A stretch of DNA of 64,000 nt from Adenophora triphylla var. japonica. Taxonomy: Eukaryota > Streptophyta > Magnoliopsida > Asterales > Campanulaceae. Position 1 is the stretch's first letter. Every line of letters begins with the position of its first letter. The notes beneath the pieces are model-generated. The model saw only the letters and a program-made list of their open reading frames with translations, did no database searches and was not told where the DNA came from. Both the position numbers and the translations under genes were made by a program. The stretch covers positions 62,001 through 126,000 of the forward strand of contig JAFEMH010002588.1 in the NCBI GenBank assembly GCA_022495995.1, given 5' to 3'. Below, piece by piece: positions 39,344-58,139 of the stretch.

Positions 39344-39765
39344 TTATAAAAATATGTTATTTTTAACCCACCGTTTTCTTCTTATTGTTTATTTGGAAAT
39401 AATAAGCTTATTTCATGAAAAAAAAAAGATATTTACATTATAGTTGTTTTAATGATGACATCATTTTAGGAAGCATTTCTTGAAATTAATATGGTCATTT
39501 ATTTTTATAAGTTTCAAATTTATTTTTTTATAAACAACAAACGATGAAAAAACTAATATATAATAAATAAAATTCATTTATATTAGTTAAAATAATGAGG
39601 AAAAGAATCCAAATATAAATATATTTAAAAAGAAAAAATCATTTATTATAATAGAGGCAAAAAATTTAACTTGAATAATAAATAAAAACTATTTATGATA
39701 TAATTATAAAAGAATTTAAGTAAGATATTGAAAAAGAGTTTATTTCTCATAGAGGCAAAAAAAAC

Positions 39766-40045
39766 GAATTTTTTCCCAAATAATCCCGTTTTACTTTTTT
39801 ATTTACGAAAATGACTTACTGTTCAAACTATTGCCCAGAATGTCCTCTTTTTTGAAACTCGCTACACCGTGTAGCGAGTTTGACTAGGGTTGGTCAAAAC
39901 TCGCTACACCGTGTAGCGAGTTTAGGGTAATTAATTTAGGGCGTTGGAAAATTAATTAGGTCATTTAATTAAACTAAATTCGCTACACCGTGTAGCGAGT
40001 TTTGACCAGAATTAAGTCAAACTCGCTACACCGTGTAGCGAGTTC
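39766..40045. repeat. MULE left terminal inverted repeat with four palindromes
   Basis: Four copies of a 23-bp palindrome (arms ACTCGCTACAC and its complement around a central C) start at 39857, 39899, 39978 (first bases ATT) and 40021. The whole stretch is the reverse complement of 48506-48784 with few differences. Confidence 0.93.
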
Positions 40046-41711
40046 AATTTAAAACCCTTACCCCTTCTCAGTTCACGCATTCAACCAAAGAAAACAAAAA
40101 AACTTACTCCATCTCCATAGCCGCCGAGCCAAGGAAGAAGAAGAACACTTCGAGCCAAGGCAAGGATTTTGTGAAGAAATTCAACCTTTTTATTAATTGT
40201 AAGTTTAAATTTCTATATTAAGTTGAATTTTAGTTTTGATTCCGAATTTATGATTTATTTTTTTAATTCCGAATTTATGTGACTAATTTCTATATTGCCA
40301 AGAAGAAGAACATTGCAATTTAGGATTTTTTTGGTTGATTTGTTGTTGAAATATTGTTATTCCCATTTATGTGACTAATTTTTATTTAATTCCGAATTTT
40401 TTTATTATTTTGGTTGATTTGTTGTTGAAATATTTTTATTCCGAATTTATGATTTTTTTTAAATTCCGAATTTCTTGACTAATTTTTATTTAATTCTGAA
40501 TTTTTATTTAGTTTTTTTGGTTGATTTGTTGTTGAAATATTATTATTCCGAATTTATGTGACAAATTTCTATATGCCAAGAATTTTTTTTTATTTTTTGT
40601 ATGATTTTTTTTGGTTGATTTGTTGTTGAAATAGTGTTATTCCCATTTATGTGACTAATTTTTTGATTTTTTATGACATTGCAATTTAGGATTTTATTTT
40701 TGGTTGAACTATTGTTAAATATATAGATGTAAATATTATTTCTGATGAATTAATTGTGCCCTATACATAGTTTAATTGTTGAGAATAATTAATTGATGTA
40801 TTCAGATTTTAATTTATTTAATATAAAGATGAGAAAAAATTATTATTTCAAATATTTTAATAATAAAACTAAAAAATCTTGTGCGGAAAACTAATCGAGG
40901 ATAGATTAGACCGATTGTTATTCCCATTTATATGAACTGTCTATTTATTTTTTATCAAAAAAAATAATAATAGCAAATTTAAAGTAAATTGGGTCATTCA
41001 TTTTAGAAAATTTTAGAAGGGAGTATATAGCAAATTTGCTCATAATAGAAATAAATAGCAAATTTGAAAAGATTTTTGAATATTTTTTTGGGACGGAGGG
41101 AGTACAAAGTTTAACTTGTGTGAGATTATAGCAAATTTGATTATCGAGATAGGAACGTGAGCTTGTCCGAACAAGGTCCAAGTGGATTGTGCCCTAATGA
41201 CTCTTATAAGTTATAGGTAATCAGAACGGAATCCTTAATTCGTGAAAGGGGTACATAAGGTGAGGCATGACGTCGAAGGAATTAATTAGGCGTCATATAT
41301 ACCATATTGTAAACCCTAAACCCTAATTTCTCGTCACGAAACCCTAAATCCTTAAAATATGATTTAGTGATAGAAAAATAGAATAGGAATTAATATACAT
41401 ATAACAACATCCTAAATCTCATATACTTATATTCCAAACCCTAAACCCTTAAAATATGATTTATTGTTCAAACATTTTATAAAAAAAAAAAAAAAAACTT
41501 CATCCTATTTTTCAAAATCTCATGAGGATTACTCTTGAAGTATTACTTAGTATATTGGCTGGAAACCAAGAACTTCCCCACATGCACTTCTTGGAAGTGT
41601 GGGATAACTTTGGATTACAATGCCACGTACTAGTAATTACATTTTTTGTATTCTTTTATTTATTTTCTTGCCTTATAGAACAATAACCAACCTTGATATT
41701 GAAATAAATAG
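40046..41711. other. MULE left interior, non-coding
   Basis: This is AT-rich DNA between the TIR and the PMD gene. Degenerate repeats of TTGGTTGATTTGTTGTTGAA with TTCCGAATTTATG occupy 40225-40660. A Stowaway-like end (GGGACGGAGGGAGTA) lies near 41090 without a partner. The early part (40070-40200) may be an untranslated first exon of the PMD gene, since a GT-rich donor-like site and a long repeat-rich intron-like stretch follow. Confidence 0.5.
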
Positions 41712-43256
41712 ATGGAAGCGTTCATTGATCCCGGGCCTATCGATACATCTGTTCTGACCCACCATGCAGACCATAGGGCTAGGTATATTTGGTCCGGTGG
41801 CCGGTTTCTAGTCCCCTCGTTTTTCGTCATGGTGCCGCCTTGCCGCCCGTATTAGCTCCCGTCATATTATTGAGACTGGCAGAGTGTGGATTTAGTGGAG
41901 TGCACTACATGGCTCTGATACAATGCGATTTTGCATTCTTTGGAGGCCTTGATCGAGAGATGGCGTCAGGAGACCCATACGTTCCATCTCCCGGTTGGTG
42001 AGATGACGATCACCCTACGGGATATCGGCATGATTTGCGGGTTGCCGATTGATGAGGATGCTCATATTGATGATGGGTTTCCAGCATATAGACCGGCGGG
42101 CCGAGTGTCAGTAGTATTTAGGGGCCGTCCCTGGAGACGGAGATATAGATGGGAGCAACGAAGCTCCGATGGATTACCGTACGTTTCCCACGCTTTAGTG
42201 ACCTCGATGATGATACCGCTCCGGAGATTGTGGATCGCACGTACGGGCTTATATCTTGCTTGCCTTGGGTTCTACGATCATGCCCGATCGTACGAACAAC
42301 AAGGTTAAGCTATGTTATCTCCCGCCGCTTAGGGATGTTTCTAGGGTCGTGGAGTACATTGGGGAGTGCGGCGCTTGCTTTCTGTATCGAGAGTTATGTA
42401 GTGCGGCGGACCCTCACACGAGACAAGTGTGGAGGATTTCTCAACGTTCTACGAGGTATTTTATTTCATTTTAATGTTCATTATGTTTTTAAGTTTTATT
42501 TCAAATTTGCGGCATTATTACTTAGTTTTTGATATACATTTATTTCATATAGATCTGGGCTTGGGAGAGGTTGACATGTGTGAGGCCGCAGATCCGTTAT
42601 CGCCTCAGAGACCAGGACTACGTCATCATGCCCCTCGGATGCATGTATGCATATATCATACTTTATTTTCTCGTCGTTAATGTTTTTATTTTTTTTGAAC
42701 AAAATCTTATAATTATTTTGTTTATGAAATTTCAGGTGGACGCAGGCTTCGCTTGATCTGAGAGAGGTTACTGCACATAGCCTGCGAGGCTATCGGGATC
42801 GGTGGCTCGCCGAACGAGGGTCACGTGGTGTGGCGGCCTTATGAGGGAGACCCGCTCCGGTCTACCGCACCGAGGTGAGGAGATATGGTTGGCGAAGGTC
42901 CCTCTCATATGCTTTGAGAAGGTTGAGTGGCATCTGCCTGATCGCGTGATGAGGCAGTTTGGCCTGAGACAGTTTGTCCCAGCACCGTTCGACACTGGCC
43001 TGGAGTTGCACCGTTCGGATCGGCGGGGAAGGCCTACGGTGAGATGGGGTGAGCACCATCGCCCACTTGTTACACTATGGGGACAGCGCCACGAGAGGTT
43101 GGTTTTCGGGGTGTTCGGCTTCCACGATATGACCTACACCGACCCATATATGGTATGGTATAGGGACATAACGTGTAGGTTTGTGCAGCAGCTCACTCAC
43201 GTAGAGGTGGATGGATACCAGTCGTCTGCCCCTGCCATAGAGTTTATGGTAAGTTT
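41712..43256 (+). pseudogene. Plant mobile domain (PMD, MAIN-like) gene
   Basis: It starts at ATG 41712 with PGPIDTSVLTHHADHRARYI, the usual opening of PMD/MAIN-like proteins. The diagnostic segment is ALIERWRQETHTFHLPVGEM then TLRDIGMICGLPIDEDA (about 41935-42065). Downstream are KLCYLPPLRDVSRVVEYIGE and, after an intron (42456-42552, GT-AG), IWAWERLTCVRPQIR. A second intron (42645-42735) leads to WTQASLDLREV. The tail VPLICFEKVEWHLPDRVMRQ and RPLVTLWGQRHERL is also typical. Frame breaks occur near 41810, 41930 and 42300, and a further break occurs near 42835. PMD proteins are known both as host genes for silencing and meristem maintenance and as passengers in MULEs. This is the transposon-borne form, convergent with the transposase gene. 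Confidence 0.85.
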
Positions 43257-43410
43257 TTACATTTTTAAAGTTTTTTTTTCTAATATTTTTTTTTAAGAAA
43301 ACATCAATTATTAACTTATGTCTCTCGTTCTTATATATATTTTTGATATAAAATAAAACTGAAACTGAATCCAATTCAAGCCAAACATAAATTACATTAA
43401 AAACATTCTT

Positions 43411-46029
43411 CTACTCCCTAAGGTTCGGGCATCTACGACGATTGTGCCCTTCCTGATGGCATGATGAACACATACTCTTCCGTTTATCTGCTTGAAAGTC
43501 CATAGAATTACGAAAGCGTCTTGATCTAGGTCGTCCGGACTTCGCAGAACGTCGAAGTAGGGGATTAGGGAAGAAACTAGGCACCAAACCATCCACGCCC
43601 CAATAGTCCTCATGATCGATTGGTTCGAATGTTCCCTTCCATGTCTTGTAGTATTCCCCAACGGTGTAATATTCAGAAACGAAATCTCGACCATCAATAT
43701 TTTGTGCAGAACAACAAGCAAGGAGATGGGAACAAGGCATGCGATAGGCAACCCATTTACCACATGTGCAGGTGCGCTCATTAAGTCGGACAATCTGTAT
43801 ATTTCCTCCGTGATCACCCCGACGTCTTTGTTGTCACTTGATACACCCCCATTTCGTGATTGTTGAACCTCCCGACGTGATGTGTTGCCGCTTTTCCGGT
43901 GTTCTTCAAGTAGTGATAACTCGACTTTCGTGCTAAATTGGTGTCGGGGATTGATGTTAGGGTTATCGGGATTACCTCCTAAGGCATTGATTGAAAATCC
44001 ATGCCTTACTTGAAAGTACTCCACGCAACGATAGAAGGCGGTTTCAACAATTGCCGTGATTGGCATCCCACGAGCTCCCTTCATCACACCATTGAAAACC
44101 TCGCACATGTTGGTAGTCATGATGCCATACACCGTAACCACCATCGTGTGCCAATGTCCATTTTCTAGCATCCAAATGTTGAAACCATGCAATTGCCTCG
44201 GGCTTAATTCCACGGATACTCTCTAAGATAGATTTCAATTTTCTATCTTGAGTTGCTCTACCCGCTCTCCGCAACGTATACTTCAACCCTTCCCCTCTAT
44301 ACTTTTCCAAGAAATTTGCTCGCATATGTCTCAAGCAATATCGATGATGCACGTTTGGCCACCACGTATCTTCGCCTACGGCCTTCGTAATGCCCCAATG
44401 ACGGTCGATATCAAGCATACTTCACGACTCTTGATAATATGCTTGCAAACCAGGTATAAGAACCAACGCCCTCGCCAGTCCTCCTTTTCAACAACGGCAA
44501 AGGCAAGCGGAAGTATGCTGTCTTGGGCGTCAACACCTACGGCAATCAAGATACCCCTTTATATCTACCATGCATAAATGTTCCATCCACGAAATGACCG
44601 GCCGACAATGAGAGAAAGCTTCAATGCAAGGCCCAAATGCCCAGAATACATGTCGAAATAGGGAGGCTTCACCGACAGGAGGAGGAGGTGTAGAGTACTC
44701 AACAATTGTCCTCGGATTGTATTTTTGAATGGCTGCTAGGACGCGGGGTAACCTCTTATAAGATTCCTCCCAATCTCCAAAAACCTCTGCAATGCCATTC
44801 TGCTTTCCACACCATGCCTTCTTGTAAGTAATTACCTTGTCGAACCTACTAGAGATGTGTGCAATAATGACTCCAACCTTGACATCTGAATCGGCCTTAA
44901 TAAGACCAACGACTTCCCGATCGATAAACTTGGCATCTAGATTGGGGTGATCTTGACTTGCTCCAGAATATAAGCAGCAGTGAGGAGCCTTATACTTGGT
45001 CACTTCCCAATAGCCAAACTTCTTCCTACTCACACGAACATAAAAATGACATGGATAATTTTTTAACAGACACTCAATTACCCATGTGTTCGGTGTGCTC
45101 TTTCTTACCCTGAACCTGCGATTGTTTTTAATATGGAACCTTTTCATATCAAATTGTGCCTCGTTCTTGCCAGAAAGCGTATCCCTTTAGCAATCGGTTG
45201 TTGTTCCGGATCCCAAACCGGAAAACTATGTGCATGATCGTAATCAATCAAGCCTTGTTCTTGTCGAGCGAGATGTACCAATATCACCGTAAAAGGGATA
45301 ACTCGCTCTCTCATATCTTCGATATTGCGGCACTTCATAGTGAACAAGAGGTGCTTCCACATCATCATCAATCGGCCCATCATCACCGGCTCCCAAATCG
45401 ACATCGAATCACTACTACCCTCCTCATATTCATCATCATCATCCTCTAGCATTGCATCTACATCAGTGTGCACTTCCTCTTCTTCACAGTCAACATCATA
45501 ATCATCATTAACGTGATCATTATGCCCAAATGCCCGATCATCATCATGAACATGATAATTATGGCCAAATGCCCCATCATCATAATTTGGTGTTTGAGTT
45601 GATACAAGAGTTTGGGAACTTGGACCAACCCCATCATCACGGTTACCGCTTGGAGAAAACCCGAAAGTACTCTCTGTCTTTGTGTTTCAAACTCTGGATT
45701 GGATCGATTTTCAATTAATTTTACAACAACATACAACTACAAATTTCCAATCCCCCAAATTTAGCAAACCGATCGAACATTACTTCCATACACGCATCAT
45801 CTTCAATACGGAAAGGAAAGTACTCACCAATCCCGCTATCAAAAGAATGAGGGCATCCGTAAATGACTTTCAAATCAAATTGAGACCGATCTAAGTTCGC
45901 CTTTTTATATAACTCATCAATCAACTCATTGTATTTCCATTGGCAATTACCCCTTATTGCACATTTTGGCCCCTTTTTGAAATGAGGACCATCAAACGGT
46001 TGTTCATCATCACCTCCCCAATAACACAT
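43411..46029 (-). pseudogene. MuDR-type MULE transposase gene
   Basis: Reading minus from ATG 46029, the N-terminal PB1-like part is MCYWGGDDEQPFDG with CPHSFDSGIGEYFPFRIED. An acidic, Met-rich linker follows. The DNA-binding domain (RFRVRKSTPNTWVIECLLKN, CHFYVRVSRKKFGYWEV) lies at about 45147-44940. The catalytic core shows HFVDGTFMHGRYKG near 44570 and DIDRHWGITKAV near 44400. Next is the MULE C/H motif HHRYCLRHMRANFLEKY, then the SWIM zinc finger (CTCGKW, PCSHLLACC) near 43750, and a zinc knuckle CSSCHQEGHNRRRC. Several frame changes (near 45640, 45140, 44560, 44430, 44150) show that this copy is inactive. The MULE-specific C2H motif and SWIM domain make the family call firm. It would have mobilised the element by binding the TIRs. 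Confidence 0.88.
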
Positions 46030-47539
46030 AAAAATGATTGGACCCCGTTCATATTTAACCCTACATTACGAAATCAAAGTGTTAAAACCTACATAACAAA
46101 ACTCTTACATTTATTATATCTACAATATAATAAAACACGCTTAAATCATTAAATTTTAAATCTAAACACAAGTCAAAATAATAATTAAGATGATGTTAAT
46201 TTACCTTGATTCTTGTTGATCTTCAACAATTCGATGAAATAAAATAACTTGAAGAAGTTTTATTTTGAATTAAGGGAATTTAGAAAATGGTGATTGAGAG
46301 AGTTGATTGAGAGAAAGAGAGAAAGGTAGGAGAAGAAACAAAGCTGAGAAGAAAAAGAGAAAGCTATGGGAGGAATCTCAGAACCACGTGAATTCATTGA
46401 AAATTTCATTTCACGGGTGTTGTACTTTGTTGCTTTGTAAAGTTTTTGTTTTACTTAAACTCGCTACAGGTGTAGCGAGTTTCAATAAAGCTGAATTAAA
46501 CTCGCTACACCGTGTAGCGATTTCAGCTTTATTGAAACTCGCTACACGGTGTAGCGAGTTTAAGTAAAAACAAAAACCTTTACAAAGAACATAATTTCAA
46601 AATTTTTTACTTCTTTTTGTTTTTTCATTCACGAAGGCATTTTGAACAATGAATATAGGTTAATTTATGTATCATAATGAATATCTAAAAATTGTTACTT
46701 GAAGTACATATAATGTTGTAACAATAACAACTTTTAAATTTTAATTTGGACAATTAAATCAGCTTCAAATTTTTGCTCAAAATAGCTTCGTAGTAACATC
46801 AAAAAAAAAAATTTCGTTCGCGAAGCTATTTTGAGCAATAATTATAGGTTAATTTAGATATCATAATGAATATCTAAAAATTGTTACTTGAAGTACATAT
46901 AATGGTGTAACAATAACAACTTTTAAATTTTAATTTCGACAATTAAATCAGCTTCAAATTGTTGCTCAAAATAGCTTCGTACTAACAAAAAAAAAAATTA
47001 CATGTGTTAAAAAAATAATGACATGTGGCTGAATTTTTTTTTTATAAATATTTATTTTTCATATTTTAAAACAAATGATAACATAGGAAATCTTACATAA
47101 AATTACAAAAAATAAATATTTTCGAGTTAGTGGCCACATCCCGACCACATAGGAAATCTACATAAAATCACAAAAAAAAAAAAAATTTGTCAAGTTAGTG
47201 GCCACATCCCGGCCACATAGGAAATCTTACATAAAATCACAAAAAATAAATATTTTCAAGTTAGTGGCCACATCCCGGCCACATAGGAAATCTTACATAA
47301 AATTACAAAAAATAAATATTTTAGAGTTAGTGGCCACATCCCGACCACATAAGAAATCTACATAAAATCACAAAAAATAAATATTGTCAAGTTAGTGGCC
47401 ACATCCCGGCCACATAGGAAATCTTACATAAATAAATAAATTTAGTGACCACATTCCGGTCACATAGAAAAATAGTACATAAATTCAGGTACATATTAAA
47501 TCCGACATAAATTCAAATAATACATGTCCAAAGATGAAA
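46030..47539. repeat. MULE spacer: inverted repeat, 189-bp duplication, 66-bp array
   Basis: There are three separate structures. 46437-46580 is an imperfect inverted repeat carrying three palindrome copies. A block of about 160 bp is duplicated 189 bp apart (from about 46635 and 46825). 47085-47465 holds five to six units of about 66 bp (GTGGCCACATCCCGGCCACA plus a TTACATAAAATCAC segment). No gene is seen, but this is the shared space between two minus-strand genes, so the transposase promoter should lie near 46040-46400. Confidence 0.85.
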
Positions 47540-48369
47540 TTAACAATCCTTAGGGAAGACCTTACAAACATTGGAAGGAACAATGTTAAGTAGTTTTTTT
47601 GAGCGTGATATGGCCCAAACAACAACCTAATAGATGAACAAAACAAAACATTTAGAACAAAAAGGTAAGGATATATTTAGGGAGTGTAATGTTAAGGAAA
47701 ATATTTCATACCTGAGTAAGTATCAGAACAGCACCTTCACCAATGTCACTTCCGCCCTCAGTTTGCTTAAACACTTTGTCACCTAAGTAAGCTTCAATAG
47801 TGTCAGTAGGATCCTTCAAAATCACGTGAAAAGAGCCATTCTCAGTTGGTGTGCACTTCTTGACAACAACCACAACCTAATAGAACAAAAATATTATGAC
47901 CAATTAATTGTAAATTTCAACCTTAACTATAATTAATGTAAAATATTATACCTGTTCCACCCTTTCATGTTGTTTGCATTTCTCCTTGATCATTTTCAAC
48001 GGATAAAATGTACCCTCTCCAGTGAGATAATCCATTGCAGAAAGCCAAGCTTTGCCCGGAATTCATCATCGTCCTCCGCTCTTCAAGCTTTCTACGTATT
48101 GCCTCTTGGGTCGGCGAGCTGGGGTCCCCGAGAGACATGAGCTTTTCCCGGTGTGATCTTAGACGCATGGCTAACTGTGCTTCACCAGCGGGACCAGGTA
48201 TGATATGACGCGGTGGAGATCTCTCTCGTTCGATTTGAGGCGGTGGAGACGGTGGAGATTGAAACTCTCGTTCAATTTGAGAGAGATTAGATAGGCGATT
48301 GGAGGTTTGACCGGGTTGTACTGGAAGAGGTTTTCGTCCACGATACCAGCGGGGTTTTGATGGATCCAT
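47540..48369 (-). pseudogene. HROB-like OB-fold protein gene carried by the MULE
   Basis: Three exons on the minus strand: 48369-47952, 47876-47712 and 47626-47540, with GT-AG introns (CAG/GTATAATA, CTATTAG/GTTG, CAG/GTATG, AATAG-type acceptor). The protein would be about 220 residues. It starts MDPSKPRWYRGRKPLP and has HIIPGPAGEAQLAMRLRS. A segment KAWLSAMDYLTGEGTFYPLK follows, then VVVVVKKCTPTENGSFHVIL and KDPTDTIEAYLGDKV. It ends ISRSKKLLNIVPSNVCKVF. The PGPAG motif, the KDPT.TI OB-strand, GAVLIL and a C-terminal SRS..LNI..NV.KVF match the homologous recombination OB-fold (HROB) family, whose members load the MCM8-MCM9 helicase at damaged DNA. One frameshift in exon 1 (within a GGG run near 48063) separates the N-terminal and W-containing parts. 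The family call comes from memory of the motif pattern. Confidence 0.68.
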
Positions 48370-48505
48370 TATGAGAGAGATAGATGAAAATGGACTTAAG
48401 AAAGAAAGAAAGAAAGAAAAGGGAGAACTAGGCTGAGAAAGGAAGAGAATGGTAAGTTTTGTTGGGACGGACGGAGGGGGTTATGTAGGGGTTTGGAATA
48501 TATTG

Positions 48506-48784
48506 AACTCGCTACACGGTGTAGCGAGTTTGACTTAATTCTGGTCAAAACTCGCTACACGGTGTAGCGAATTTAGTTTAATTAAATGACCTAATTAATT
48601 TTCCAACGCCCTAAATTAATTACCCTAAACTCGCTACACGGTGTAGCGAGTTTTGACCAACCCTAGTCAAACTCGCTACACGGTGTAGCGAGTTTCAAAA
48701 AAGAGGACATTCTGGGCAATAGTTTGAACAGTAAGTCATTTTCGTAAATAAAAAAGTAAAACGGGATTATTTGGGAAAAAATTC
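48506..48784. repeat. MULE right terminal inverted repeat with four palindromes
   Basis: The palindrome copies start at 48507, 48550, 48629 and 48671, each with central G on the plus strand, mirror-imaging the central C of the left TIR. Confidence 0.93.
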
Positions 48785-49039
48785 CAAAAAAAACTTTGAG
48801 ATTAGTTGTTGTAGCTAGTAGGATTTGAACCCTGGTCCTTAGTAACAAACTTTAACAGCTTACCAACAGAACTAGTCATAGAATCTATTAAAAGCAATGA
48901 TGGAAATTAAGTAATCTTATTTGCGGGTGCACTTAGTAAGTAATATAAAATAAAATTATATTTTTATAACTAGAAATAAAATTTGACCGGGTGCACGTGC
49001 ATCCCCACTTTATAAGCTAAATCCGCCCATGCTCGAGTA

Positions 49040-49541
49040 CGAAGAAGAGGCCGCCATGTTGGGTTGTGAAGTCAAAACCACAAGGAGATAGTATGTACTA
49101 CTGTATGGAATTTGTCGTTGTATAAAAGTTTAGAATATCTGATGTGAAAGACAGAAGACACAAAATTCTGTTAACATAGGCAAGAGAGTCAAGTCAACTC
49201 TCGTTTGTTGATGATTGGGGCTATTGAAGGTCAACTCTACAAATTTTACGTTTCCAATCCCCCCTCCCCCCCCCCCCTGGATATACCATACAACAGATGC
49301 CTGCATATGATATTAACTTCAAACAATGACCAGGTGAGAGACTACGACTATTACAAAGGTTATTGAAGATGGAACTGTTGATCTAAGCTAAGCCCGATCT
49401 TGAAATTCTTAATTTGCCAAGAAAATTTCAACCATTTACACAACAGCCACCACATTTTGAAATTATTGAGTTAGACCATTACAATATTTACTCTTAGGCG
49501 TGATCAGCCACCAAATTTATAATATTGACCGACCGAACTAA
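49040..49541. other. Intergenic DNA right of the hAT nest
   Basis: No gene or repeat is recognised, apart from a C-run at 49259-49277. It is probably original flank between two independent insertions. Confidence 0.5.
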
Positions 49542-51046
49542 GGCTCCGTTTGTTTTGCGTAAAACATTTTCCGGAAAATGTTTTCATGTAAAATGATTTC
49601 ATGTAAAAAGGTTTCCTCGTAAAATGTTTTCATGTAAAAAGATTTCCATGTAAAATGTTTTCAGTAAAATATCACTATCTTGTTTTCATTGTTTGGCAAA
49701 TTTGACGAAAATGTTTTCCGAAAATATCACTTTTTTTATTAATTTAAATCAACTTTGGAAACCGCCCCACCCACCCTGCCTACACCCCTACCCACCCCCC
49801 AATTTTTTTTTTTTAATTTTTTAATAAAAAATAAAAAAATTATTTTTTTGGGGGTGTAGGGGGTGTAAAATAAAAAAAAAATTGGGGGTGGGTAGGGGTG
49901 GGGTGGGCGGTTTCCAAAAAAAAAATTTTTTGGGGGGTGGGTGGGGGTGGGGTAGGCAGGGGGGTGGGTGGGGCGGTTTCCAAATTTTTTTTTTTTTGGG
50001 GGGTGGGGTGGGTAGGGGGTGGGGTAGGCAGGGGGTGGTGGGCGGTTTTCAAAAAAAAAAAAATTTTTTGGGGTGGGGGGTGGGGGTGGGGTAGGCAGGG
50101 GTGGGTGGGGCGGTTTCCAAAAAATAAAAAAAAAAAAAATTTTTGGGGGGTGGGTGGGGGTGGGGTAGGCGGGGGTGGGTGGGCGGTTTCCAAAAAAAAT
50201 TAAATTTTTTTTTTTTTTTTTTGGGGGGGGGTAGGGGGTGGGTAGGCATGGGGTGGTGGGTGGGCGGTTTCCAAAAAAAAATTAAAAAATTTTTTTGGGG
50301 GAGGGAGGGTGGGGTGGGGTGGGGTAGGCGGGCGGGTGGGCGGTTTCCAAAAAAATAAATTTTTTTGGGGGGGGATAGGCAAAGGGTGGGGGCGGTTTCC
50401 AAAAAAAAAAAAAAAAAAAAAAATTTGGGGGAGGGTGTGGGGGTGGGGTAGGCGGGGTGGGTGGGCGGTTTCCAAAAAAAAAATAAAAAATTTTTTTTTT
50501 GGGGGTGGGGGTGGGGTGGGTAGGGGTGGGGCAGGCAGGGGGCGGGTGGGGCGGTTTCCAAAAAAAAATTTTGGGGGAGGGTGGGGGTGGGGGGTGGGGC
50601 GGGGTGGGTGGGGCTCCAAAAAAAAAAAATTTTTTTTTTTTTGGGGGTGTGGGGGTGGGGTAGGCGGGGGTGGGTGGGCGGTTTCCAAAAAAAAAAATTT
50701 TTTTTTTTTTTTGGGGGTCAGGTGGGGTGGGTGGGGGCAGTTAAAATTTTTTTTTAATTATTATTATTATTATGTTGTACCGAGCGTAATATGAGTTGTA
50801 CATTAAGGCCAAGAACAAGAGTTGTAAAATGATTTACGAATTTGAAATTGGTAAATCATTTTACAAAGAAAACCTCCTTTTTTTACATCCTTGTAAAATG
50901 TTTTACATTTGACTTTCTTTTACAAGTGGTTACCAAACACTCGAAAGTAGGTAAAACATTTTTCGAAAAACATTTTACTTGAAACAAACACCCGAAAACA
51001 AGGAAAACATTTTTCGGAAAATGTTTTACATGAAACAAACGGAGCC
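49542..51046. mobile_element. PIF/Harbinger-like non-autonomous element
   Basis: The termini are GGCTCCGTTTGTTTTGCGTA and, in reverse complement, GGCTCCGTTTGTTTCATGTA. TAA is present on both sides (49539-49541, 51047-51049), consistent with the 3-bp TTA/TAA target of this superfamily. Subterminal repeats of AAAACATTTTCCGGAAAATG and TTTTCATGTAAAATG lie at both ends. The middle is almost entirely a G-rich minisatellite. No transposase is present. Confidence 0.8.
49840..50745. repeat. G-rich minisatellite inside the Harbinger-like element
   Basis: About 14-16 units of roughly 50-70 bp alternate GGGCGGTTTCC, an A/T-run hinge (AAAAAAATTTTTT) and GGGGTGGGTGGGGGTGGGGT. Unit length varies mostly in the homopolymer runs. 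The many GGG tracts on the plus strand are candidate G-quadruplexes. Long Pro-rich and Gly-rich frames are by-products. Confidence 0.92.
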
Positions 51047-51153
51047 TAAGTTGAGGAACAAAGACAAATAATATTGTAATTATAGATTTACTCCATCCCT
51101 CCCAAAATAAATGTTGCATTTAACTTGACAAATAATAAGCGTGATCATACATA

Positions 51154-53308: not shown

Positions 53309-56300
53309 TTACCAAAAATCTAGGCAAGAGCACTGACCATCTTTGAAATGGTGAAATCGGTTCCTATCCCTGACAACAATTTCTCGATCATAAGCCCTTG
53401 ATATCAACTTTGTGACATAGTGACAGTCCTGGCATACTCTCAAGTTTTTGACAATTCTGATAACTATATCTAATGTGCCTTGGTGTAAAAATCCATACGC
53501 AATGGCAAGTTTTTCACTGTGAACTGATAAAGCGTGCTCCTTTTCTTCTTCTTCTATATCAAGCAAGACTTCCTCGGTAGCTGGCGAATATCCAAATGTA
53601 CTCAGTCGCTTTGATATCTCGTACCACTTGTCATAAATCTGGGTTGAATCGGGGTGAGACAAATCCCCAGCAACAAACCTGTGCACAGTCCCTTTAACCT
53701 CAATCATGCTTGCCCCTGGCACCTTTGCAACCCCTTTTGTTTTCATCAGATTCCTCACATTTCTTGCATCATCCCAACGTCTTTCAGCAGCATATATATT
53801 TGAGAGAAGGATGTATCTGAAGCAAGAAGTTAAAAACAGATTAAGACATTGGGGGAATGGAAGGAGTAATTATGGCGCATTAGCGATTTCTCAAGCTAAT
53901 TTTATAGTTTCATTAACTGAGATCCCTAACGAAAGAGAACTCAAATCTACTTATGGGGAACAGGAACACTATGAGGCCTCAGGGTAGAGGATTTAATTAG
54001 ATATATAGTATGCCTAGGCGCAAGCCTAGCTCTATCATTAATAATAAATCAGAACTTCAATTTGATTAACAGTATTTGGGTATTTGACAACTTCTATTTC
54101 TAGATAAAAAGAACTTTATTAATTGGATCAAGAACATGATGTACAAAACAGAGAATAAGCCATCTACTAAAGTCAGTACACACAAATAAATAAATGAAGA
54201 TAAGAAAGCCGAAACTCAGATAGAAGCATAAAAGAATAAGCTCTCCGCACTTGTGACCGTAATATACGATAATTCCTCTCCCTACATATTCCCCACAAAG
54301 TAGTGCTCTCCAAAACCCAAACACTTTACTGTAATGAAGGCCTCACTGATTCAGGACAAACCCACTTTTGACTTTAAATATCAAACATGGGGCACCATAA
54401 TTAGCAAGAAATTTGACATTACAGAAATAGAGTCTCATCATGTTTTCAACACATGAGCGAATCAGGAGAGATGGCCTTCTTCAGCCTATGCCTTTGGCGC
54501 CAATCATTAGTGTTTAACCAGTTCAGCATTAGGGCACAGACAAATCTCTTTAAACTTATGCAGAACCTTGGAGTTCCAAATGAAAGGAGCTCTATGAGAG
54601 GTGCAAGGTGATCGAGAAGTATAAAAAAAATCATGAAGAATTGAAAAGACCCAATAATCAATCAGAATCAAGACTTCCTGAGCTTCACTGTCATTTATAT
54701 TTCTAAGAAAATGAAAATACCAGGAAAAGGTATCATTGTCCCAGACTAGAAACCTGATAGCAGAAAGTCTAAACAACAAAGAGAAGAAGTGCAAAGCGGA
54801 TATGCCCCGACTCAAAGATCGTCCTGAAACCAGAAAAGTTCAGATTGGAGACAACATAACGAATCATGGATGAATTTATATGGGCTTGCATATACAATCG
54901 GTGGAGGGGTAATATTAATTCCATCCATTCCTCTGAGCACGGAGCTTACTCCTAATAAATTTGTGATTTAAGGAATGAGGTTCCAGAAGGGAAATGCCAC
55001 AATCACTTACGGGTAGGGCAGTGTTCTCTGAAATTGGATTCCCGATCCCTAAACGGCCTTCATCCTTCGATCTACACACGTCGGCTCAAATTCATGGAGG
55101 TATGCCAAAACATAACATTTTTCGAATATGTGGAAATTAAGGGTAGCAGGAGCGTCGTGGGATTGTGGGATTAGTAAAGAGAGAGGAGGTGGTGGGGGGA
55201 CAGCCTGGTCGAAGAGAGATGAACCACGTTAGCATGGTTAATGTAAGAGAGAGGAGATTTCCTGTATTAACCTTGATATCCATTCAACAATATTGATTAA
55301 TCTATTCTAGACCACATAATGCCATTCTCATCTTAATCTTAAGTAATAAGCCTGCTAAGAACTAAATAGACGCTAAAAATCAATTTAGGAATGAAGAGAA
55401 AAGCAAAAAAACTACTCACCGACCACTATGATGTGGTTGCAGATCAAGAAGATGCTTTCCAACAACTTCACCCACCTCAGCATTCCTATGAATTCGGCAT
55501 CCCCCCAGCAAGGCGCCCCATGCACAAGCATTGGGCTCCATAGGCATGGTCGCAATGAGGCCAAAGGCCTCTTCCAGTTTCCCAGCCCGAGCAAGAAGAT
55601 CGATAACGCAACCATAATGCTCGACCTTGGGGTCAATATGGTACATACTGCTCATGCAAGCCAACATATCCTCGCCTTCCTCAGTCATCCCACTATGACG
55701 AAATGCACTAAGCATAGCCACAAAAGTTATGTCATTTGGTGCCACTCCTTCCTCTTGCATATTCTTAAAAAGACGTTGAGCCACCTTAGTATGTCCGTGC
55801 ATGGCCATGCCAGTTATTATGGTATTCCAAGCTAGAACATCTTTTGATTCGATCGAATAAAACACTTCTGCAGCACGAGAAATGCATCCACATTTAGCAT
55901 ACATGTCTACCAATGCAGTGCCAACAATTGAATTTATCACAATTTTATGATCACCGATGAAGGAATGCAACCTCACTCCTTGATCCAAAGCACCCAAATG
56001 ACCAACTGCTGATAATAGGCTGACAACAGTAGGCTCAGTTGGTCGTATTCTCAGGGACCTCATTTTATCAAACAAAGCAAGAGCCCTGTTAGATTTCCCG
56101 CTCTGAGCATAACAACCTAACATTGCGTTCCACGAAATGACATCTCTATGAGGCATCTCATTAAACATTTTAAGCGCTTCATCTACATATCCGCATTTAA
56201 CATATCCCGCTAGCATTGAATTCCATGAAACAACATTCTTGTCAGGCATTTCATCAAACAGCTTCTTCGCTTCAACAATATTCCCAATAATCCCATATCC

Positions 56301-56969
56301 ATTGATCATAGTGTTCCATGAAATCACATCCCTACTCACCATCCTGTCAAATAAATCCCTAGCAACCACGATTTCACCACATTTTACATACCCATCAATC
56401 ATCGAATTCCAACAAACGGTGTCACTCACGGAACACATATCAAACAGTTGCCGTGCATCACTCAAATGTCTGCCATTTGAATAGAAACAAATCAGTGAGC
56501 TCAATATATAAGAATCAGACTCCAACCCACATTTAACAACATGGGTATGAACTAAAATTCCAAATTGAACACTTGACAACTCATTGCAAGCTTTAACCAC
56601 AAATGGGAAAGTCAATTCATTGGGTTTCACACCATTTTGTAGCATATTTTGGAAGAGTAAAACAGCTTCCAGATTCTGTTTGTTTGATACTGCACATCCT
56701 CTAATGACACCATTGTAAATTGATAGTGATGGGTTTTGGAGATGGCTGAAGATGGATTTTGCATAAGTTAGACTTCCATGGGGTGAAACTGCACAAAACG
56801 AAACTAATTTGGAGAGTTCAATTGAGGTCTCAGAGGGAAAAAAAGTATGATCTGTGATTATTTGGGCATGGATTTGTTTGAGGTGAGTTAAGTTCTTGCA
56901 TTTGTTAATCAGGTGAATTATGAAAGGAGTTGACAATTGGTTTAAGACTGCAATTGGCTTATTTATCAT
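53309..56969 (-). CDS. PLS-class pentatricopeptide repeat protein with DYW domain
   Basis: Two exons: 56969-55420 and 53816-53309, with a 1,603-bp GT-AG intron (donor GTGAGTAG, acceptor CTTCAG). Joined length is 2,058 bases, 685 residues, in frame across the join (HHSGRYILLSNIYA). About a dozen PPR motifs run from residue 50 to about 480 (CWNSMIDGYVKCGEIVVARD, SWNTMINGYGIIGNIVEAKK, ALVDMYAKCGCISRAAEVF). E and E+ regions follow (MEPNACAWGALLGGCRIHRN). The C-terminal DYW deaminase has the zinc and catalytic signatures HSEKLAIAYGFL and CQDCHYVTKLIS. It ends CSCLDFW, so the terminal tripeptide is DFW rather than DYW. Such proteins bind organellar RNA and edit C to U in plastids or mitochondria. 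The N-terminus has no obvious transit peptide by eye. No frameshift or stop was seen, so it is probably functional. Confidence 0.93.
53817..55419 (-). other. Intron of the PPR gene
   Basis: Most DYW-class PPR genes have no intron, so a 1.6-kb intron near the E domain is unusual. The intron has no recognisable gene. Small open frames at 54446-54815 (minus) show no family match. Confidence 0.85.
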
Positions 56970-58139
56970 CAGAATAAAAATAAAGTGTTCAAATCTGGAG
57001 TTCCTAAATCATGAACATCTCCGTGGGGAGAGAGAGATAAAATCATCGACCATCATTACCAACTGTAGAGATTTCGGAGAAGAAGAGTAGAATGCGAAGT
57101 TGGTTAGGAGATTTTTGAGAAGATGAACTAGTCTTGTTGTTTGGCGGCGGGGAAATCACGCCAAAGTTGCAACGTAGCACCTAAAGTTTTATTTTTTGCA
57201 ATTTAATATATTATGTTCACACTTTGTGGTAATCAGAAGCAATTTTGGATGACCGTTAACTTTACTAACTTTACTGAACGGATCCCATTGCACGTGCAGC
57301 TCACATGATTTTTTAAGGACAAAAATGTCTTTTCCACTTACACGTGACATGCATGTGACTCCTCCATGAAAATATAAGGACTGAAATGTTAAAAGTTAAA
57401 ACACTATGCTTAGAAATCTTATTTCATAAATAGAAAGGGCTAAAATTAAATATTAAAAATTAAAAATCCTAATTCAAAAACCAAAATATGTTCATTATCC
57501 CTGCCCTTCCCCATCATCTTTCGGATTCCTACAGCCACCGGCCCACCCTTTCACCATTCCTCCTCTCTTCCCCGAACACCACCGGTGCCGTCCCCATCAT
57601 AACCCACCCATCAACAACCTCTGTTTGAAACTCCTCCCCGTTCCTCCCTTTTTCCTCGGTCTTACCCACTTCCCCCTTCCGTTCTCTTATTCTCTCTCAC
57701 CCAGCTCTGCCTCACCACCTCCTCAGCTCCTTCCCCTTCATCAACTCTTCTTCCTCACTCACCCACCCCAACCCTTTCCACCCATCTCTACAGTTCTCTC
57801 TCTCTCTCTCTGCTACTTCTTCTACCTTCAATGTATACCCAATTGAGTTTCTGTAAGTCAATGATCAGAGCAGAGGGGTAGGCATACATAGGTATTAAGT
57901 TGGTTGAGCAATTTTTTTTTTTTTTGCTTGGTTGTCGAATTAAGGTAAAAGGTGAAAAAAGTGATGTGTTGTGAGTGTAGATGGGTTGGGTAGGAGAGAG
58001 AAAGCGGAGTAAGTGGGTAATGGTTGTGAGTAGAGACAAGTGGGTCCCATTTTCATTTTGAAAAAATTGCAGATTATTGTGGAACGCTTAAAAGGTGTCT
58101 TTTTTCAGATTATCGTGAGACGAAGGGAGTATATATATA
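56970..58139. promoter_or_regulatory. Upstream region of the PPR gene
   Basis: The 5' leader probably covers 56970-57170 (minus transcription). A C/T-rich tract (57520-57830) with a CT run at 57797-57811 follows. A Stowaway-like end (GACGAAGGGAGTA) near 58118 has no partner. Specific promoter motifs could not be assigned with confidence. Confidence 0.4.

Follow-up and report, generated by a model that had tools for sequence, protein, structure and literature searches.

An HROB-like OB-fold gene recurs beside transposase and plant mobile domain genes in Mutator-like elements of Adenophora triphylla

A relative of HROB, the activator of the MCM8-MCM9 helicase, lies together with a plant mobile domain (PMD) gene and a MuDR-type transposase gene inside a Mutator-like element (MULE) of Adenophora triphylla var. 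japonica. The HROB-like gene is not a stray insertion, as it recurs across the genome next to related transposases and in fixed orientation, and it is very probably a regular component of these MULEs. Our main reading, to which we give slightly less than even odds (a probability of about 0.45), is that an HROB-like gene was captured once by a group of plant MULEs, became their regular third gene, and aids gap repair or reinsertion through MCM8-MCM9.

The window, a 64,000-nucleotide stretch of contig JAFEMH010002588.1 (assembly GCA_022495995.1, positions 62,001 to 126,000 of the forward strand), holds the element at 39766-48784 (9,019 bp; Table 1), with PMD on the plus strand followed, from left to right, by the transposase and HROB-like genes on the minus strand. 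Both hallmarks of MULEs are present, long terminal inverted repeats (286 nt, 100% complementary) and a target duplication within the 8-11 bp range (10 bp), and they enclose the HROB-like gene, which bears out the initial annotation of a three-exon minus-strand gene inside a MULE of about 9 kb. Related elements were sorted into families that we name A, B, and C, the window belonging to A. Exact target duplications of 8-11 bp were found in five of the six elements tested, and none was found for the sixth, L011. The terminal repeats are 265-291 nt long in the family A relatives L011, L028, L029, and L041+L033, and 148 nt at both ends of the family B element L038+L025; no end repeats were found for the family C element L039 within the available stretch. 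As the repeats of the window element are identical and its genes are broken, it may have moved recently by means of a transposase made elsewhere. The CGCTACACNGTGTAGCG palindromes recur in both terminal repeats and in the internal cluster upstream of the transposase gene, and are candidate transposase-binding or promoter sites.

Two further features of the window lie outside the element. A 530-aa open frame, PPR-like by eye (55416-57008, minus strand; likely C-terminal part at 53309-53869), argues against a general assembly error, and local assembly quality seems good. A 1.5-kb stretch at 49536-51052, bounded by 50-nt inverted ends (90% identity) and made up of G-rich GGGTGGGTGGGGGTGGGGTAGGC arrays alternating with A/T runs, looks like a small DNA transposon grown into a G-rich, possibly quadruplex-forming, minisatellite.

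Table 1. Features of the Mutator-like element and its flanks, in window coordinates
Feature	Position	Strand	Remarks
Target site duplication, left copy, CAAAAAAAAC	39756-39765		10 bp, directly outside the element
Left terminal inverted repeat with CGCTACACNGTGTAGCG palindromes	39766-40051	+	286 nt
PMD gene, at least three pieces in two frames	41919-43296	+	PF10536
MULE (MuDR-type) transposase with SWIM finger	43392-46065	-	Frame broken several times in the window copy
CGCTACACGGTGTAGCG repeat cluster, internal, upstream of transposase	46455-46561		Also present in the terminal repeats
Tandem repeat, 66-nt unit	47080-47472		Just downstream of the HROB-like gene
HROB-like exon 3, C-terminus SRSKKLLNIVPSNVCKVFPKDC and stop	47626-47540	-	
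HROB-like exon 2, OB-fold domain core	47876-47712	-	PF15072 match
HROB-like exon 1	48369-47952	-	ATG, IPGPAG, AWLSAMDYL; 418 nt; net frameshift in the window copy
Right terminal inverted repeat	48499-48784	-	286 nt, 100% complementary to the left repeat
Target site duplication, right copy	48785-48794		10 bp, directly outside the element

The HROB-like gene reads on the minus strand from a start codon at 48369 to a stop codon at 47540, and both of its introns are GT-AG. Exon 2 alone matches the HROB profile PF15072 (E 8.7e-13, 48.5 bits, cut-off 30.8), and the spliced product, with an X at the frame break, matches it over all of its 85 positions (1-85; E 3.7e-22), so that the assignment to the HROB family made from the sequence alone was upheld by the HMM search proposed for it. 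The exons and introns stand as first described, except that exon 1 does not stay open in this copy, its length being 1 mod 3 and its reading frame broken. L032, a relative with 96.5% identity, stays in frame across the same point, which indicates that the break is peculiar to the window copy. E values against the profile are 3.7e-22, 7.7e-25, and 4.3e-30 for families A, B, and C, with the profile covered whole in A and B and from position 2 to 84 of 85 in C. The MULE HROB proteins are about 209-223 aa long with the OB-fold at about residues 122-208, and the long N-terminal region of human HROB is absent: only about 120 aa precede the OB-fold, versus about 490 in the human protein. A GPAG stretch upstream of the OB-fold is found in all three families, is missing from some copies, and may be linked to the MCM8-binding stretch of HROB. 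A single-sequence search with the window HROB product returned no protein relatives at E 1e-3; no relative was found in viral contigs, the PDB gave just weak unrelated matches and no HROB relative, and PADLOC gave no result.

The PMD and transposase genes that the initial annotation placed beside HROB were likewise recovered. PMD pieces at 41919-42308 and 42781-43296 (both plus strand) score above the Pfam cut-off, and the piece at 42214-42474 scores below it. Taken singly, the transposase pieces of the window are above the cut-off for SWIM and below it for DBD_Tnp_Mut and MULE (PF10551), and a C-terminal zinc-knuckle match is weak and also below the cut-off. The homologous transposase of L039 has a 700-aa open frame with MULE, SWIM, and Transposase_mut above the cut-off (50.8 bits for PF10551), and it matches the window region by tblastn in four pieces and three frames; the SWIM match of the window and this intact homolog together identify the gene as a MULE transposase. 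Several other transposases are long-open among the matches listed for the C-terminus of the window's transposase.

The genome from which the window comes (2.48 Gb, 8,432 contigs) contains at least 150 HROB places above the Pfam cut-off (150 of the 150 scored, from 2,086 candidates), and 14 control genomes gave none above this cut-off. Besides the window, we examined 34 HROB places, each in a stretch of 3 kb or longer. These comprise the ten best HROB scores (L001-L010, with L006 lying inside L011 and counted once), the first 20 of 65 rows classed as window-like (L011-L030), and five places chosen by hand (L031-L034 and L040); L042 (1.3 kb) and L043 (1.6 kb) were too short and were left out of the count. 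A transposase of the window type is found in the stretch at 30 of the 34 places (L001-L005, L007-L010, L012-L027, L030, L031, L033, L034, and L040), and at the remaining four (L011, L028, L029, and L032) family A repeats lie beside HROB. The transposase has been lost and HROB kept in L011, L028, and L029, with PMD still present in the last two. These elements as a group are not Pack-MULEs, which lack a transposase and bear a piece captured from a host gene, because 30 of 34 carry one and it is long-open in C2031, C265, and C913. L031-L034, L042, and L043 were considered as host HROB genes and rejected, being MULE-type HROB by sequence; a host HROB was not found among the candidate rows examined, which does not imply that the genome lacks one. 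L018 and L022 are 98%-identical 10-kb stretches, 25 kb apart on the same contig (G000:C2386) and both with the same element, and the MULE was copied along with them in a segmental duplication.

In families B and C, PMD and HROB point rightward and are followed by a transposase pointing leftward, an order seen in full in L035+L014, L037+L023, L038+L025, and L039; in family A, a rightward PMD is followed by a leftward transposase and a leftward HROB. PMD is upstream of HROB in four of the five loci that were extended upstream, no PMD being found within 6 kb upstream in the fifth (L036+L015), and PMD pieces lie upstream of HROB within L012, L017, and L034 as well. L041+L033, 82-85% identical to the window element, keeps the window's order for HROB and the N-terminus of the transposase, which lie between repeats of 95% identity. 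A weak inverted pair in L035+L014 (2596-2688 and 11305-11397) was rejected as the element ends by its orientation; it consists of the ends of neighboring family A-like elements, and the left end of the element itself lies at 2771.

Pairs no more than 12 kb apart were counted among at least 150 matches each listed for the window's transposase C-terminus, HROB exon 2, and PMD. Among these listed matches, all 15 transposase-HROB pairs are on the same strand, all 23 PMD-HROB pairs are on opposite strands, and all 59 transposase-PMD pairs have one orientation, where about 0.2 pairs of each kind would be expected by chance. Six of the listed transposases have both PMD and HROB partners, one with its PMD 11 kb off. 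When further HROB places were included, the number of transposase-HROB pairs no more than 15 kb apart among the listed matches was 17, of which 16 are same-strand with HROB upstream (one 10.6 kb off) and one, at 12 kb, is opposite. Most of the listed transposases are without a listed HROB partner, among the at least 150 matches listed for each. A check independent of HROB took, among the matches listed, the three whose transposase frames stay open longest (C2031, C265, and C913; 888-889 aa), and the 1,450 bases read at the predicted HROB site contained HROB sequence beside all three. The prospect raised in the initial annotation, that related MULEs might consistently lack this gene and its presence be a chance capture, did not materialize: many copies have these genes, and their orientation is fixed.

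The HROB introns are of two types, located after VEQ and LTQ in families A and B, and after TLK, LHQ, and FK in family C. The HROB copy of L045, beside a family A transposase, pairs an intron at the VDQ position (A/B-type) with one at the TLK position (C-type), a combination for which a five-exon ancestor with different later losses would be the simplest account. A five-exon HROB gene may thus have been captured once, as DNA, with its introns lost differently in each lineage. L012 and L040 group with the window and family B in the HROB tree (support 100/100), whereas in the transposase tree they group with family C (support 100/99). The window transposase has diverged widely from every other one compared (dS at least 1.6 or saturated), whereas the window HROB differs from transposase-bearing A/B-type copies by a dS of only about 0.12-0.20. 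The conflict between the trees and the contrast in dS show that HROB has been exchanged between MULE lineages. When L012 and L040 are compared with L008 and L034, the transposases are at low dS (0.04-0.2) and the HROB types differ, which shows replacement of HROB alone within an element lineage.

HROB was modeled in 23 relatives, L019 not among them. It is open throughout in one, L023, where the introns are GT-AG; in L014 and L015 the only fault is the intron 1 acceptor, which is not AG as aligned. In each of the other 20, the gene contains a stop or a frame break or lacks a part. Within class C, HROB carries a stop in L003, and its exon 1 is frame-broken in L005, the HROB copy of L039, whose transposase is nevertheless open. 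All three HROB copies found next to the long-open transposases are damaged: L046 (C913) matches over residues 1-223, but its frame breaks in a C-run and its intron 1 acceptor is lost, the match of L044 (C2031) is limited to residues 150-223, and L045 (C265) has a frame break near the start and an insert whose ends we take to resemble those of a Stowaway MITE. No element with PMD, HROB, and transposase all intact was found among the elements examined.

For the transposase, dN/dS is 0.09-0.40 between families and 0.37-0.99 between close copies; pooled over 7 copies of C and 10 of B, its C-terminus gives 0.34 and 0.49, respectively, and its N-terminal half gives 0.78 over 6 copies of B, with 4 stops. 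For HROB, dN/dS is 0.74-0.95 when the window is compared with family B and 0.6-1.3, varying by copy and region, when A/B is compared with C; pooled values are 1.14 within B (11 copies, 5 stops) and 0.29 within C (P 0.002; 9 copies; 12 nonsynonymous and 13 synonymous changes; no stop in the compared codons). Ten class C HROB copies have no stop in up to 118 compared codons, with all 118 covered in seven copies, one fewer in L034, 76 in L001, and 95 in L007. Neutral simulations over 112-118 codons at distances of 0.45-0.6 gave an expectation of 2.4-3.6 stops, with zero stops in 3-8% of runs, and those at a distance of 0.3 an expectation of 1.8-2.4, with zero stops in 8-14%. The class C loci are the top HROB scores, read via local matches, so the sample favors intact copies. 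Constraint on HROB is weak in A and B (dN/dS about 0.7-1.1) and clearer in C (0.29, in this biased sample). An accessory gene of Abermu elements, ORFR, is also described as fast-changing (PMC9168764). The weak constraint in A and B, taken together with the damage seen in most copies examined, that of the window among them, leaves room for HROB being a passenger gene.

Human HROB, in the available text of the cited studies, activates MCM8-MCM9 after RAD51 loading (PMC11055865, PMC7290032), and its OB-fold, at residues 492-575, contacts MCM9 and is needed for helicase stimulation and unwinding (PMC11055865), with RPA-binding motifs located in the N-terminal third of the protein (PMC11055865, PMC7290032). 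A stretch upstream of the OB-fold contacts MCM8, a contact predicted to be conserved in plants (PMC11055865, PMC7290032). The OB-fold is stated not to support DNA binding (PMC11055865), contrary to a description of HROB as binding ssDNA through it (PMC11377751). In maize, MURB is described as required for new insertions (PMC9168764).

The short MULE protein appears to retain the OB-fold half of HROB and, in many copies, the conserved upstream GPAG stretch. When a MULE excises, a double-strand gap stays behind; if it is refilled by copying, element copies would be gained. Protein made from active copies could steer the host MCM8-MCM9 helicase to the gap; template-copying repair would then be favored and the element restored, or reinsertion would be aided, a role that might be likened to the job known genetically for maize MURB. 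Considering the retained OB-fold and GPAG stretch, the need for MURB in insertion, and the gaps left by excision, we think that help in gap repair or reinsertion is the likeliest job for the HROB-like protein, if it has one. We lean slightly toward the gene doing something for the element. It is unlikely, though well worth considering, that the protein acts through MCM8-MCM9 in gap repair, and a little less likely still that an element-encoded and traded HROB recruits host MCM8-MCM9 to excision gaps so that the donor site is refilled and copies are gained, as a functional counterpart of MURB. The suggestion in the initial annotation that a repair-linked protein travels with the transposase and PMD genes and helps excision repair or element copying is, overall, partly supported.

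The strongest competing explanation, to which we accord a substantial but clearly less than even chance, is that an ancestral MULE captured HROB long ago through transduplication, and that the gene has since been carried and recombined without benefit. The near-neutral dN/dS in families A and B, the damage to the window copy despite identical terminal repeats, and the damage in all three copies beside long-open transposases and in 20 of 23 modeled relatives agree with a passenger gene, and MULEs are known gene capturers (PMC6446971, PMC9168764). However, HROB holds a fixed place and orientation beside transposases, including all three long-open ones, one copy is fully open with its introns and two more are open save for a splice site, and HROB has been exchanged between lineages. 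The class C copies also speak against a passenger, with no stop in the compared codons of ten copies and a dN/dS of 0.29 in nine, although the stop of L003 and the frame break of L005 lie outside those codons. Simple coincidence, a host HROB happening to lie by or in a MULE insertion, we regard as already refuted: there are at least 150 HROB places above the cut-off, MULE features at all 34 examined places, pair counts far beyond expectation, and repeats and a target duplication that enclose the window gene.

Two other roles for the element can be envisaged, both improbable. The short HROB might be a decoy that ties up MCM8-MCM9 and shifts excision repair away from homologous repair to the gain of the element; a protein of about 209-223 aa, with its OB-fold at about 122-208 and the human N-terminal part with its RPA-binding motifs missing (PMC11055865, PMC7290032), would be consistent with such interference. 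Slightly less probable again is that PMD and HROB jointly counter host silencing, HROB acting via replication or chromatin and not in gap repair. The PMD proteins MAIN and MAIL1 act in silencing, and captured PMD has been speculated to serve MULEs in anti-silencing (PMC5418596); moreover, PMD and HROB stay together in L028 and L029, which have no transposase. However, no role for HROB in silencing was found in the available text of the HROB literature consulted. A role for HROB in gap repair or reinsertion remains our main reading. If it is true, a transposon would bring together a homologous recombination factor and a PMD protein, of a kind related to silencing. What the second gene of MULEs does has long been a puzzle, as maize MURB is needed for insertion and the function of mudrB/MURB is described as unknown (PMC9168764, PMC6446971). 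An extra MULE gene from a family with a known partner, MCM8-MCM9, would permit a direct test of an accessory-gene role, and the fixed HROB-transposase layout may bear on why some MULEs need a second protein to move.

PMD genes in MULEs (PMC6446971, PMC5418596) and multi-gene MULEs (PMC9168764, PMC6446971) are already known, and we found no report of HROB in a MULE among the open-license PMC papers listed by our searches. As in other PMD-bearing plant MULEs, where PMD lies by the transposase, often antisense, in many clades (PMC6446971, PMC5418596), a PMD gene is present here, but no HROB partner is listed for those elements in the available text, which gives an unknown ORF with antisense PMD for MULE-Solanaceae_1 (PMC6446971). 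VANDAL/Hiun elements (vanA, vanB, vanC) also carry accessory genes, and VANC acts for the element in anti-silencing (PMC6446971); HROB is not among the genes listed for them in the available text, and, unlike them, the window element has long inverted repeats. The Abermu MULEs of grasses (ORF1, ORF2, ORFR) resemble the present elements in exceeding 8 kb and in having three genes, one of them reversed and variable in position between species, but ORF2 and ORFR have no stated function and HROB is not named in the available text (PMC9168764). Host HROB (MCM8IP, C17orf53) belongs to the same Pfam OB-fold family, matched over the full profile, whereas the MULE version is element-borne, multi-copy, and about 210 aa long, with its OB-fold at about 122-208 and not at 492-575. 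Plant Helitrons carry RPA-like genes, and are thus another case of a transposon with an OB-fold repair or replication protein, although the element class and the protein family differ. A close parallel in layout, by description and not by sequence, is maize MuDR (mudrA, mudrB), which likewise has a second small gene by its transposase gene, convergent with it as in families B and C; in the present elements, in contrast, this place is taken by a relative of HROB, and PMD adds a third gene.
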